A stretch of DNA of 64,000 nucleotides from Vibrio artabrorum (lineage in GTDB: Bacteria; Pseudomonadota; Gammaproteobacteria; Enterobacterales; Vibrionaceae). Below, piece after piece: positions 16,151-58,881 of the stretch (position 1 is the first letter of the stretch; the number at the start of each line of letters is the position of its first letter). The notes under the pieces were generated by a model, which was not told the origin of the DNA, did not search any database, and worked only from the letters and a program-made list of their open reading frames with translations. The DNA lies in the NCBI RefSeq assembly GCF_024347295.1, contig NZ_AP025459.1, positions 1,240,001 through 1,304,000 of the forward strand, given 5' to 3'. The translations under genes were made by a program, and so were the position numbers.

Positions 16151-16331
16151 AACTTTAAGCTCTCTAAAAATTGATTACTTTGAGGTTATTCCTCATAGCA
16201 TTCTATTTCATAAGATATTTGAAATTTCTCAGCCCAAGTCACGTATAAAGCAGGCTCATAACGAATGACATGGATTCCCCCTACCGAGGATCTGCCACAC
16301 TTATGTGGTACTTAAATGCATCGGAGGCACC

Positions 16332-17357
16332 ATGTCTGATTATTCTTATTTCTGCGGTATCGACCTAGCTAAAAACCACTTCAGTCTTCATGCCGTAGAC
16401 CAAAATGGTAAGGTCATACTTCATAAGTCGGTAACTCGCTCTAAACTACTGACTACAATAGCAAATATGCCACTCATGCGTATAGGCGTTGAAGCGTGTG
16501 GTGGTGCACATTATTGGGCAAGAACACTCCATAAAATTGGGCACGACGCCCGCATTATGGCCGTTAAATACGTAATTCCTTATCGAACTAAAGGAAAGAA
16601 CGACCTTAATGATGCTGTTGCCATATGCGAAGCTGTTCAGCGTCCATCAACTCGCTTTGTACCCGTAAAATCCCCCGAGCAACAAGCCATCTTATCGGTA
16701 CATAGAATGAGAGAGCATTGGGTTCGTGAACGCACCGCGCTTATGAATCGCATGCGCGCCCTACTCTCTGAGTTCGGGTTAATCATTCCTGTTGGCCGCT
16801 CTTCATTGCTGAAACACGTTCCCTTAATCCTTGAAGATGCAGAAAATGAACTGCCACATCTCGCAAGAACGGTGATTGCCGATGCTTATCACCACCTTGG
16901 AGAGTTGAATCAACGTATCGCCGATACAGAGCAAGTCTTTGACTCTTTTGCTAAGGTCAGCGCTAATGTTCAACGAGTGATGAAAGTTCGAGGTATTGGA
17001 CCGCAAACCGCTACTGCGATACTTGCTTCGATAGGCAATGGTCCTCAATTTGATAAAAGCCGTGATTTCTCTGCTTGGCTAGGACTCGTACCAAAGCAAT
17101 ATTCGACGGGAGGAAAGCCTCGCTTAGGTCGGATAACCAAACACGGCGACAAATACTTGCGAACACTATTAGTTCACGGGGCAAGGACAGTCATTGCTAA
17201 CCTTGGCGACAAGCAAGATAAGCTAAGTCAGTGGTGTCGAGGCGTTCTAGAACGAAGAGGAATGAACCGAGCGATAGTGGCACTTGCCGCGACGAACGCA
17301 CGAATTATATGGTCGCTTTTACACAATCAAACCGAATATGAAAACTATGCTGCTTAA
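16332..17357 (+). CDS. IS1111-type DEDD transposase
   Basis: The protein has 341 residues from the ATG at 16332, which has GGAGG five bases upstream. The N-terminal RuvC-like domain starts FCGIDLAKNHF with the first catalytic Asp; KGKNDLNDA carries the later acidic pair. The C-terminal Transposase_20 part has VRGIGPQTATAI and FSAWLGLVPKQYSTGG with the catalytic serine region. It differs from the second copy by only a few residues. Confidence 0.93.
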   Translation: MSDYSYFCGIDLAKNHFSLHAVDQNGKVILHKSVTRSKLLTTIANMPLMRIGVEACGGAHYWARTLHKIGHDARIMAVKYVIPYRTKGKNDLNDAVAICEAVQRPSTRFVPVKSPEQQAILSVHRMREHWVRERTALMNRMRALLSEFGLIIPVGRSSLLKHVPLILEDAENELPHLARTVIADAYHHLGELNQRIADTEQVFDSFAKVSANVQRVMKVRGIGPQTATAILASIGNGPQFDKSRDFSAWLGLVPKQYSTGGKPRLGRITKHGDKYLRTLLVHGARTVIANLGDKQDKLSQWCRGVLERRGMNRAIVALAATNARIIWSLLHNQTEYENYAA

Positions 17358-17607
17358 GTAGAAACCTAAGCAGCATAAAGAGTTAAACCCACCGGATCAT
17401 TGCAGACGCTAATGATGGAGATAGGTTAAGACCACTTGCGGAGAGCCTGTTAATGCGGCGGACACACTAGATGTCATCTAACGAATAAGGCATCGCAGTC
17501 GCGCAAGTCATCAGGGCCACGACGTATGCGAATCGTCGATAAGTAGGCCGAATGTAGAGCGACAGTCCAAAACCCATCAACATAAGTTTAGCGGATGTTT
17601 GACAACC
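17358..17607 (+). ncRNA. Putative seekRNA/bridge-RNA region of IS1111 copy 1
   Basis: This 250-bp non-coding stretch follows the transposase, where IS1111 elements encode their guide RNA. TTAATGCGGCG at 17450-17460 is the reverse complement of the attC segment CGCCGCATTAA; against the occupied target (CGCCGCGTTAA) it pairs with one G-U wobble. TAACGAAT at 17479-17486 equals the left junction at 16259-16266. RNA boundaries are not determined. Confidence 0.6.
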
Positions 17608-17738
17608 GGGGGAATCCATGTAGCCGCGTTAAGTAGTGAGCAACGCCAACCACCTAACCTAAACCATTACGCCATAAACACTAAGCCCAACCTTGAACTG
17701 AGAACGCCAAGCGTTGGGAATCTGCCTTAAACGCCTTG

Positions 17739-34194: not shown

Positions 34195-34944
34195 ATGCAA
34201 CTTTCCGTTATTCCAAACACCCTCGAAGATTTTAACTTACACGAGTTGACTACAATTCAACTCGGAGATGAGTTTTATTTTATTGCAGATGAAGTAACCG
34301 CTGCTCTTGACTACGCCGATAGAAAAGCACCAATCGATAAGTTAGATGCGGAAGACAAAATGCTGTCTCCTCATCCGATTGGAGGGCACATGTATGTCCT
34401 CATCAGTGAAGCCGCACTTTACGAACTAGTTTTCGCGAGTAAGAAACCAAACGCGAAAAAGTTCCAACGCTGGGTAACTAGAGAAGTTCTACCCGAGATT
34501 CGAAAGACGGGTCACTACGGAAAGGTAAAACTACCCGGTTTTGTAAACCGATTTAACTTGAACTATGGACGCGTTTCGAGAGGCTACTTTTCAGTAGTTA
34601 GTGAGTTATTCATTCGTCTATACGGTTCATTAGAAATGTTAGGCTATGAAATTCCAGACCAAGCTCAAGATGGCAAAGACATTCGACCAGATGTCAGCGT
34701 TGGTAGGCTATTTTCCAGTTACCTAACAGATAACCACCCTGAGCATGCTGATAGTTACCAAATGTATAGCCACCTATTTGGCAATGGGCACACTCGTGAT
34801 GCTCGCGAGTATCCAAACGAACTATTACCGTTATTTATTAAGTTTGTTGATGAAGTTTGGATACCAAGTAAGGCAAAAGACTACTTTAAAGGACGAGACC
34901 CAGTAGCTCTTGAATACTTGCCTAAACTAATTGAAGTACACTAA
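34195..34944 (+). CDS. BRO-N domain protein (phage antirepressor-like)
   Basis: The protein has 249 residues. The BRO-N domain covers about 15-120: FYFIADEVTAALDYADR, then ISEAALYELVFASKKPNAKKFQRW and VTREVLPEIRKTGHY. The C-terminal half is unique. It reads against the array and has a 150-bp leader containing an ACGTACGT palindrome, so it probably has its own promoter, and its own terminator follows. Phage antirepressors with this domain block repressors; why one sits in an integron cassette is unknown. Confidence 0.85.
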   Translation: MQLSVIPNTLEDFNLHELTTIQLGDEFYFIADEVTAALDYADRKAPIDKLDAEDKMLSPHPIGGHMYVLISEAALYELVFASKKPNAKKFQRWVTREVLPEIRKTGHYGKVKLPGFVNRFNLNYGRVSRGYFSVVSELFIRLYGSLEMLGYEIPDQAQDGKDIRPDVSVGRLFSSYLTDNHPEHADSYQMYSHLFGNGHTRDAREYPNELLPLFIKFVDEVWIPSKAKDYFKGRDPVALEYLPKLIEVH

Positions 34945-38962: not shown

Positions 38963-39040
38963 TATTTATCTCAAGCCTCCCTAGGGAATTAAAAGGCACA
39001 TTGTTATACTGAACGCCCTGTTGGAATGCAGATTTTTCAC

Positions 39041-39937
39041 ATGAATAGATTGATTACGTTGACTGAAGAACGCCTAACTAAAGCCAAAACACCCAAAGGG
39101 GGGTATAGCAAAGCCCAATTACAAGTGCTTGGCGTAAACTGGCCCCCAACTGGCGGGTGGAAGAAACGTTTGATTGGAAAGAAAGTTACGCTATATCGAT
39201 TTATCGAATTTGTAAGGGCAAGCAGAAACAAGAGTTACCTTAACGAAATTGAAACGCTACTCCCAACATTGGTTCCGCCTGTTGACTACCTTGAACGGAA
39301 TAAATCGGTAGCTAAAACTCAAATTACGCATAAGAAGAATCTAAGTAAGAAAGAGTTAAAACGTGAGCGCACAGCTGAAAAGAAAGCAAACCTAGCGCTC
39401 GAACGAGAATCTAAAATCCGAACCTATGGCATACAATTATGCATAAACGCTTTATTCGAAAAGGCAGATAAGACACTACACTACGTTGAGAAGCAATTTC
39501 TACATTCTTTGTCGCAGCAAAATGGTAGTTTAATTCCAAGTAGTGAAGTTTCACGTCTTTATCGAACTATGAAAAAACATGGCTTAGTACTGACTAGAGC
39601 CAATAGCGGAAACATCACACTATCTGGTTTCACGATGGCGAGTAAGATACAGCGAGCTCAATTGCTTTACGTTATTAGGCAAAGCGGGACGAACTATTGC
39701 AAAATAGGTATAAGCAAAGACCCTAAGAAACGTCTGCGTGACATGCAAACCTCTAGCCCAACAAAGCTGAAACTATCACTAGTCTTCGAAACGAAGAAGA
39801 ACGCCATCAAGTTGGAAAAGAGTTTACATAAAGCATTTCACAAACAGCGCGCAAACGGCGAGTGGTTTCTAGACATTTCGGACGAGAAAGTCATTGAAAC
39901 TATCGCAGATAGAGGAACTGTGAAAAAAGTTTTATAA
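39041..39937 (+). CDS. GIY-YIG (T5orf172/MUG113-like) protein
   Basis: The protein has 298 residues from the ATG at 39041 (MNRLITL); an ATG five codons earlier is possible. The N-terminus ITLTEERLTKAKTP...GGYSKAQLQVLGV is a conserved leader seen in related proteins. The C-terminal domain (about 200-290) has LYVIRQSGTNYCKIGISKDPKKRLRDMQTSSP and ANGEWFLDI, the T5orf172 form of the GIY-YIG nuclease fold. It reads against the array; a TATACT at 39005-39010 may be its -10. Confidence 0.82.
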   Translation: MNRLITLTEERLTKAKTPKGGYSKAQLQVLGVNWPPTGGWKKRLIGKKVTLYRFIEFVRASRNKSYLNEIETLLPTLVPPVDYLERNKSVAKTQITHKKNLSKKELKRERTAEKKANLALERESKIRTYGIQLCINALFEKADKTLHYVEKQFLHSLSQQNGSLIPSSEVSRLYRTMKKHGLVLTRANSGNITLSGFTMASKIQRAQLLYVIRQSGTNYCKIGISKDPKKRLRDMQTSSPTKLKLSLVFETKKNAIKLEKSLHKAFHKQRANGEWFLDISDEKVIETIADRGTVKKVL

Positions 39938-57383: not shown

Positions 57384-57473
57384 TATTTCCTCCAAGCACC
57401 TAACGAATGACATGGATTCCCCCTACCGAGGATATGCCACACTTATGTGGTACTTAATTGCACCGGAGGCACT

Positions 57474-58499
57474 ATGTCTGATTATTCTTATTTCTGCGGT
57501 ATCGACCTAGCTAAAAACCACTTCAGTCTTCATGCCGTAGACCAAAATGGTAAGGTCATACTTCATAAGTCGGTAACTCGCTCTAAACTACTGACTACAA
57601 TAGCAAATATGCCACTCATGCGTATAGGCGTTGAAGCGTGTGGTGGTGCACATTATTGGGCAAGAACACTCAATAAACTTGGGCACGACGCCCGCATTAT
57701 GGCCGTTAAATACGTAATTCCTTATCGAACTAAAGGAAAGAACGACCTTAATGATGCTGTTGCCATATGCGAAGCTGTTCAGCGTCCATCAACTCGCTTT
57801 GTACCCGTAAAATCCCCCGAGCAACAAGCCATCTTATCGGTACATAGAATGAGAGAGCATTGGGTTCGTGAACGCACCGCCCTTATGAATCGCATGCGCG
57901 CCCTACTCTCTGAGTTCGGGTTAATCATTCCTGTTGGCCGCTCTTCATTAATGAAACACGTTCCCTTAATCCTTGAAGATGCAGAAAATGAACTGCCACA
58001 TCTCGCAAGAACGGTGATTGCCGATGCTTATCACCACCTTGGAGAGTTGAATCAACGTATCGCCGATACTGAACAAGTCTTCGAGTCTTTTGCTAAGGTC
58101 AGCGCTAATGTTCAACGAGTGATGAAGGTTCGTGGCATTGGACCGCAAACCGCTACTGCGATACTTGCTTCGATAGGCAATGGTTCTCAATTTGATAAAA
58201 GCCGTGATTTCTCTGCTTGGCTAGGACTCGTACCAAAGCAATATTCGACGGGAGGAAAGCCTCGCTTAGGTCGGATAACCAAACACGGCGACAAATACTT
58301 GCGAACACTATTAGTTCACGGGGCAAGGACAGTCATTGCTAACCTTGGCGACAAGCAAGATAAGCTAAGTCAGTGGTGTCGAGGCGTTCTAGAACGAAGA
58401 GGAATGAACCGAGCGATAGTGGCACTTGCCGCGAAGAACGCACGAATTATATGGTCGCTTTTACACAATCAAACCGAATATGAAAACTATGCTGCTTAA
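57474..58499 (+). CDS. IS1111-type DEDD transposase
   Basis: The protein has 341 residues and differs from copy 1 at a handful of positions (for example NKLGHDA, SSLMKHV, VFESFAK), so the two copies have not just arisen from one another in the last step. Confidence 0.93.
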   Translation: MSDYSYFCGIDLAKNHFSLHAVDQNGKVILHKSVTRSKLLTTIANMPLMRIGVEACGGAHYWARTLNKLGHDARIMAVKYVIPYRTKGKNDLNDAVAICEAVQRPSTRFVPVKSPEQQAILSVHRMREHWVRERTALMNRMRALLSEFGLIIPVGRSSLMKHVPLILEDAENELPHLARTVIADAYHHLGELNQRIADTEQVFESFAKVSANVQRVMKVRGIGPQTATAILASIGNGSQFDKSRDFSAWLGLVPKQYSTGGKPRLGRITKHGDKYLRTLLVHGARTVIANLGDKQDKLSQWCRGVLERRGMNRAIVALAAKNARIIWSLLHNQTEYENYAA

Positions 58500-58749
58500 G
58501 TAGAAACTTAAGCAGCATAAAGAGTTAAAACCACCGGGTCATTGCAGACGCTAATGATGGAGATAGGTTAAGACCACTTGCGGAGAGCCTGTTAATGCGG
58601 CGGACACACTAGATGTCATCTAACGAATAAGGCACCGCAGTCGCGCAAGTCATCAGGGCCACGACGTATGCGAATCGTCGATAAGTAGGCCGAATGTAGA
58701 GCGGCAGTCCAAAACCCATCAACATAAGTTTAGCGGATGTTTGACAACC
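58500..58749 (+). ncRNA. Putative seekRNA/bridge-RNA region of IS1111 copy 2
   Basis: TTAATGCGGCG is at 58592-58602; it pairs with this copy's target CGCCGTGTTAA with two wobbles and no mismatch. TAACGAAT at 58621-58628 equals the left junction at 57401-57408. Surrounding changes relative to copy 1 spare both segments. Confidence 0.6.
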
Positions 58750-58881
58750 GGGGGAATCCATGTAGCCGTGTTAAGTGGTGAGCAACGCCCACCGAACTCA
58801 AGACAACATACCATAATCACCACACTAAAACTTGAAGCCAGAACTCGCAAGCGTTGGGAATCCGTCTTTAACACTTTGTTA

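Follow-up and report, generated by a model that had tools for sequence, protein, structure and literature searches.

Two IS1111-family elements in the 64,000-nucleotide stretch of Vibrio artabrorum DNA analyzed here (the window) very probably carry, downstream of the transposase gene, a seekRNA- or bridge RNA-type guide that is aimed at integron attC sites and tolerates their variation through wobble pairing, a reading drawn from DNA sequence. An attC-aimed RNA guide, as put forward in the original prediction from the window alone, is supported by the covariation of guides with their targets, by covarying stems that leave the guides in loop strands, and by the lineage-specific choice of attC sites. 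The matches, the covariation, and the site choice are direct observations, and the comparative evidence from 124 insertions is what is new here.

Two intact IS1111 elements occupy attC sites

The window is part of a chromosomal integron array (genome of 4.44 Mb in two contigs), with an integron integrase encoded outside the window (L299:14130-15098; TIGR02249, 457.6 bits). Both element copies (Table 1) encode full-length, DEDD/IS110-type transposases that match NCBIfam NF033542, named "IS110 family RNA-guided transposase." The IS1111 family is defined by a DEDD transposase of 330 to 350 residues with a GL-P----S(T)G motif (PMC11187229); in the translation of copy 1, we read by eye residues D20, E63, D100, and D103 and the TG variant of this motif, GLVPKQYSTG. 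The subterminal inverted repeats match at 12 of 12 bases inside 7-nt left and 3-nt right extensions, and the noncoding region 3′ of the transposase gene is 265 nt long (17358-17622) vs 42 nt 5′ of the listed ORF. A 3-nt right extension is likewise found in the IS1111-attC group. A further trait of the IS1111 family is a circular intermediate with a junction promoter; near the right end, TTGACA may form such a promoter with TAGAAT, a sequence that would arise only once the right and left ends join in a circle.

Table 1 Features of the two IS1111 elements, their guides, and their targets, numbered from the first base of the window
Feature	Position	Strand	Evidence or remark
IS1111-family element copy 1, 1,360 bp, intact	16263..17622	+	ends; 12-bp subterminal inverted repeats, 7- and 3-nt extensions
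IS1111-family element copy 2, 1,360 bp, intact	57405..58764	+	1337/1360 positions same as copy 1
Transposase ORF copy 1, 350 aa as listed	16305..17357	+	Pfam DEDD_Tnp_IS110 and Transposase_20; NCBIfam NF033542
Transposase ORF copy 2	57447..58499	+	same Pfam and NCBIfam evidence
Left subterminal inverted repeat ATGGATTCCCCC	16270..16281 (copy 1); 57412-57423 (copy 2)	+	sequence
Right subterminal inverted repeat GGGGGAATCCAT	17608..17619 (copy 1); 58750-58761 (copy 2)	+	sequence
Target 1 right half GCCGCGTTAA, attC L box side	17623..17632	+	left half TAAC 16259-16262
Target 2 right half GCCGTGTTAA	58765..58774	+	left half TAAC 57401-57404
Predicted seekRNA-type structure	17436..17498	+	comparative fold; stems by covariation
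Predicted stem P1	17436-17441 with 17493-17498	+	covariation
Predicted stem P2	17445-17448 with 17488-17491	+	covariation
Predicted inner hairpin	17461-17475	+	covariation
T guide TTAATGCGGCG, copy 1	17450..17460	+	pairs with top strand right of insertion point
T guide, copy 2	58592..58602	+	sequence
B guide TCTAACGAAT, copy 1	17477..17486	+	TAAC = left target flank; GAAT = element left end
B guide, copy 2	58619..58628	+	sequence
Putative right donor guide GTCAT	17507..17511	+	pairs with left end GAATGAC
Putative left donor guide ATGTAGA	17552..17558	+	right end ATGTA plus left end GA (circle junction)
TTGACA	17599..17604	+	16-nt spacer to TAGAAT; sequence

Both window copies read TAAC|GAATGACATGGATTCCCCC ... 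GGGGGAATCCATGTA|GCCG, and the junctions read in each bear out the predicted insertion of both at one shared attC point, TAAC|GCCG. The two have this fixed attC point and orientation in common, and the third complete genomic copy (C1:699645) lies off attC at CAACAAC|GCCGTATAAATG, also read CAACAAC|GCCGTATAAA, with no visible attC. We take the insertion point to lie one base from the integron integrase cut, and an element lodged between the R and L boxes would be expected to block the site for the integrase. Experimental evidence on the effects of IS1111 insertion on integrons is described as limited (PMC11616780).

The T guide had been noted as the exact complement of the left core of ten other attC sites. 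Its reverse complement, CGCCGCATTAA, does recur at 10 further window positions, each on the + strand, vs an expectation of 0.00 from 100 shuffles; attC status holds for nine of the ten by a rough test, passed by 9 sites beginning GCCGCATTAA in the own array (the window plus 54 kb around). Nine perfectly guide-matching attC sites of this array stay empty. Full pairing of the T guide with the two occupied targets, CGCCGCGTTAA and CGCCGTGTTAA, was confirmed by hand when rU:dG and rG:dT are counted as pairs. The second predicted segment, TAACGAAT, starts 18 bases past the guide (at 17479) and matches each left junction over 8 nt, but its description as a target match stands only in part, since the empty target contributes no more than TAAC and one ambiguous G.

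Guides and targets covary among relatives

The window transposase was searched in 247 Vibrionaceae genomes, of which 66 (own included) gave a match at E ≤ 1e-100, and in 369 class-level genomes, of which 15 (own included) did so at E ≤ 1e-85; a second-lineage transposase was searched in 329 family genomes (26 at E ≤ 1e-120). The loci used comprise 100 stretches, which are a part of the places listed, and loci delivered by the searches; 77 named loci were taken from GTDB contigs. With the RNA and the right end required, 127 distinct insertions remained, of which 112 have both flanks; deduplication used 25 bases of each flank, and shared ancestry between genomes is possible. We used 124 of these (L199 has no anchor, and one rearranged row each was dropped for L006 and L040), which by T guide comprise 85 insertions with the window guide, 7 with a variant of it altered at the first base, 17 with TTTAATTGGG, and 15 with other guides. 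None of the plasmid matches listed (two sets of 60 rows, each out of at least 5000 records) is labeled ISKpn4, ISPst6, or ISPa25, and a search of viral contigs for a relative of the transposase found none. A fragment and two rearranged copies were also seen: a 5′ element fragment at ATATAAC|GAATGAC that ends within the transposase gene (L004, G000:C2:976994), and, at L006 and L040 (both G100), an element right end that continues into an internal transposase-gene piece of another copy, a partial tandem rearrangement.

Pairing was scored over the nine target positions on the right side of the insertion point; real and shuffled pairs were each given the better of two registers. The 55 unique pairs, which represent 15 guides, contain 369 Watson–Crick pairs vs 315 ± 6.7 when guides are shuffled (maximum 336 in 2000 trials) and 79 mismatches vs 120.6 ± 5.7 (minimum 102). 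The comparison of guides with insertion sites across related elements, proposed together with the original prediction, has thereby been made, and guide and target covary over the 124 insertions. Among the 15 rows with rarer guides, 9 have 8 to 9 of 9 pairs (L105, L112, L113, L115, L117, L236, L246, L248, and L251). Clear cases of natural retargeting are guide TTGTGCTCAG with site GCTGAGCACA (L112 and L248), guide ATTAGCTTGG with site GCCAAGCTAA (L115), guide TTTAGCAAGA with site GCCTTGCTAA (L246), and guide ATATGCAGGC with site GCCTGCATAA (L105). The remaining 6 fit more poorly, with 6 (L104, L107), 4 (L172, L197, L241), or, a mild case, 7 (L179) Watson–Crick pairs of 9.

Site choice and the role of wobble pairing

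The arrays amount to a natural experiment, as two guides face mixed attC sets, side by side in 8 genomes, which makes it possible to deduce the rules of pairing, among them wobble, from genomes. Site choice was counted for exact guides only (85 and 17 insertions), leaving out the 7 first-base-changed and 15 other rows, in tests that take insertions as independent and that shared descent may weaken. The window guide is found at GCCCAATTAA sites in 0 of 85 insertions and guide TTTAATTGGG in 10 of 17 (p = 9e-10); for GCCGC sites the counts are 43 of 85 and 0 of 17 (p = 6e-5). Within the 8 both-guide genomes, out of 10 genomes tabulated by hand, and with L113 (one base different) counted with the second guide, GCCCAA sites hold 0 of 14 window-guide vs 6 of 9 second-guide insertions (p = 8e-4).

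The background for wobble consists of 108 predicted attC sites, 50 of them from the own array; the attC detector and its stricter form are rough, the reversed sequence giving 23 hits vs 99 at the cut-off used. Against GCCCTGTTAA, the window guide forms 6 Watson–Crick pairs, 2 wobble pairs, and 1 mismatch, and this variant is used 16 times with 8 occurrences in the background; against GCCCAATTAA, it forms 7 Watson–Crick pairs and 2 mismatches, and this variant is used 0 times with 18 occurrences. The difference in use, 16:0 vs 8:18, is significant (p = 4.5e-6) and is so for the own array as sole background (7 and 10 sites; p = 3e-4). One wobble (GCCGCGTTAA) compared with a perfect match gives 25:16 uses on a background of 12:11 (p = 0.6). 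Wobble therefore acts as pairing, since GCCCTGTTAA is used and GCCCAATTAA is not, and a single wobble comes at no detectable cost; the proposed tolerance of attC variation by wobble gains its support from the same contrast. If wobble is accepted as pairing, no more than one mismatch remains in 72 of 85 insertions vs 41 of 92 GC-starting background sites, and 4 of 85 main-guide insertions still have three or more. The own three copies by themselves would not reveal this.

It is unlikely that wobble has no role, variant attC sites being hit because they are common or mismatches at +4 to +6 being ignored. A mismatch at +4 is indeed common, at 36 of 85 main-guide insertions, yet GCCCAATTAA, whose mismatches fall at +4 and +5 as placed by hand, is the more frequent variant in the background and is passed over by the main guide, but the guide with which it can pair does use it.

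A predicted, covarying RNA structure places the guides in loop strands

RNAalifold applied to 39 RNA segments gives an outer stem, a second stem, and an inner hairpin in a shorter form, with 8 of 12 pairs changing on both sides. In our version of the structure, drawn from the same sequences on which its covariation was scored, 11 of 15 pairs have changes on both sides (39 sequences) and 89.9% of cells pair vs 79.5% when shuffled; sliding the structure by 1 to 3 columns leaves 0 to 5 pairs with changes on both sides. Of five structure measures, one does not exceed the shuffles: 18 further pair types were counted, a value that 476 of 500 shuffles attain. The T and B guides lie on the two loop strands between the second stem and the hairpin, and RNAalifold adds two T–B guide pairs that are never changed on both sides. 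That the guide segments would fall in loops rather than stems is thus borne out by the covarying stems; single-sequence minimum-energy folds of the window sequence do not recover this structure, and their stability does not exceed that of shuffles (z of −0.70 and +0.41), and an Rfam scan of 16200-17700 returned nothing up to E 1. The match to the top strand (17450-17460) precedes that to the bottom strand (17477-17486), which is the order of a seekRNA. A seekRNA is further defined by a length of 70 to 100 nt, by co-purification with the transposase, and by being required for movement.

Contacts of the transposase protein might instead read the folded attC or the R box, with the RNA likeness a relic or coincidence. 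Left flanks nearly all end in AAC, mostly TAAC, regardless of the T guide, attC sites are hairpins, and ISKpn4 and ISPa11 have been reported at points of potentially folded targets (PMC11187229). However, main-guide elements off attC, such as the C1 copy, keep AAC|GCC and partial guide pairing, and lineages pick different attC L boxes as their guides predict, so that this explanation is already disfavored and, in our estimate, very improbable. Least credible of all is that the 11-nt match is a captured piece of attC with no guiding function: although the T guide exactly complements an attC type common in this array, 85 insertions retain it, flanked by covarying stems, and 9 of the 15 rows with other guides show a good fit between the guide and its own, different site.

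Proposed mechanism and donor segments

For the RNA-guided mechanism, we infer transcription of the RNA, its complex with the protein, and the order of events. The noncoding region 3′ of the transposase gene would encode a seekRNA- or bridge-type RNA that sits in the DEDD transposase, with two guide strands facing each other across one internal loop. The 5′ strand, TTAATGCGG, would pair with the variable attC L box just right of the insertion point, and the 3′ strand, TAAC, with the opposite DNA strand within the near-invariant R box to its left; G–U pairs would let one guide serve several attC variants. Directly 3′ of TAAC, GAAT copies the left end of the element and may aid strand exchange, and two further RNA segments match the joined ends of the circular form. 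In IS621, handshake guides pair with noncognate DNA after strand exchange (PMC11208158), an analogy which suggests that the GAAT part works in a similar way.

These segments were compared between lineages using 8 of the 16 class-level loci L212-L227, leaving out L215-L218, L221, L224, L226, and L227 (ends not found, unread, or copies of L225); L129, L130, and L223 have no B window. In 11 hand-picked lineages, the B segment matches the left flank at 49 of 55 bases (19.4 when shuffled) and the element left end at 34 of 44 (26.8 when shuffled; P = 0.0025), and TAACGAAT is therefore half target and half element; the B guide of L212 misfits, with 3 of 5 and 0 of 4. Both putative donor guides covary with the ends over 14 lineages picked by eye, ATGTAGA at 90 of 98 positions vs 71.8 shuffled (P = 5e-5) and GTCAT at 74 of 98 vs 61.9 (P = 2e-4); the P values for donor guides and B segment are optimistic because the strings were chosen by eye.

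Relation to known RNA-guided elements

seekRNAs have been demonstrated for ISKpn4 and ISPst6 and predicted for ISPa25, all of them aimed at attC (Siddiquee et al. 2024, PMC11187229), and an rG:dT pair is tolerated in the natural target of IS621 (Durrant et al. 2024, PMC11208160). The window elements accordingly belong to an already published mechanism, since attC-directed seekRNAs and rG:dT tolerance are both on record. With the IS1111-attC group (ISKpn4, ISPst6, and ISPa25), as described there, they share the downstream noncoding region and attC target, the T match 5′ of the B match, and subterminal inverted repeats with a 7-nt left extension (PMC11187229). They differ from it in their Vibrio host and long chromosomal array, and the likeness to ISKpn4 and ISPst6 is one of general layout and type of target.

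ISEc11 and ISXne4 represent one natural redirection, in which close relatives have changed guides at a matching, different target (PMC11187229); here, in contrast, there are several retargetings, among attC L-box types and to attI. Target and donor guides are also features of the IS621 bridge RNA (PMC11208160, PMC11208158), but the RNA lies 3′ of the gene here, the guide order is reversed, and the donor segments fall outside the target loop. A further comparison for guide order is offered by the IS110-family element ISEc21 (PMC11187229), and a multiloop has been noted in many IS1111 elements (PMC11208160). Among the titles and abstract openings matched in the open-licence literature, none reports these Vibrio guides or an attI-directed guide; Tetu and Holmes 2008 and Post and Hall 2009 may describe Vibrio members.

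Other targets, a second lineage, and attI

On balance, we favor, with some reserve, a broader view of the Vibrionaceae IS1111 elements as RNA-guided integron parasites that have been re-aimed among attC L-box types, to a second attC point, and to attI. If so, guide turnover would track attC and attI diversity, with wobble widening the range of each guide. An attC partner was detected for at least 49 of 85 main-guide rows, a lower bound as the classifier missed obvious attC sites, with 4 weak and 32 without; by eye, at least 7 of 85 lack a recognizable attC (L002, L024, L052, L056, L140, L174, and L198).

The L188-type lineage, ≈43% identical, is found in 19 of 329 genomes at E ≤ 1e-120 and targets attC 12 nt further in, at TTAAGG|TGTGAGC; of its 19 distinct insertions, 14 lie in sequence that fits a simple attC pattern. 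By eye, its RNA has the matching segments GTGCTCAC or ATGCTCAC, and TAAGGTGAT. Both lineages are present together at two attC sites: that of G108 was found from either element (L061 and L434), and the other is in G217 (L078). The loci of this second IS1111 lineage at the other attC point are L188, L423-L442, L266, and L268.

Three insertions (L117, L236, and L251) have CTATAAAGC guides at GCTTTATAGACGGA, and in L251 an integron integrase gene (TIGR02249, 452.3 bits) begins 216 nt beyond the insertion. The uninterrupted sequence, AACGCTTTATAGACGGA, is present at 23 places, which are spread over 19 of 227 genomes; 6 of the 23 places have a same-orientation integrase gene 215 to 221 nt downstream (the L451 integrase matched over half its length only), and at those 6 AACGCTTTATAGACGGA is therefore an attI boundary. 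The uninterrupted site at L455 has an integrase 97.8% identical to that of L251 and is 93.9% alike over 230 nt. The L251 guide, TCTATAAAGC, forms 10 of 10 pairs with the attI site and reaches 5 of 10 on either of two common attC types. The attI case consists of one junction plus sequence, since the L251 left end is off the contig and the L117 and L236 flanks (up to 1.25 kb) hold no integrase; the attI-directed guide suggests that the entry site of the integron can also be a target. As for the other 17 copies of AACGCTTTATAGACGGA, 15 have neither an integrase match in the stretch nor shared attI-like downstream sequence and are possible orphan attI sites (L444, L446, L448-L450, L452-L454, L456, L458-L462, and L464); L457 and L465 also have no integrase match in the stretch and do share the attI-like downstream sequence.

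Finally, the window contains + strand genes at 34195-34944 and 39026-39937, most array ORFs lying opposite, which encode a Bro-N protein and a MUG113/T5orf172 protein; the latter is presumably GIY-YIG-like.
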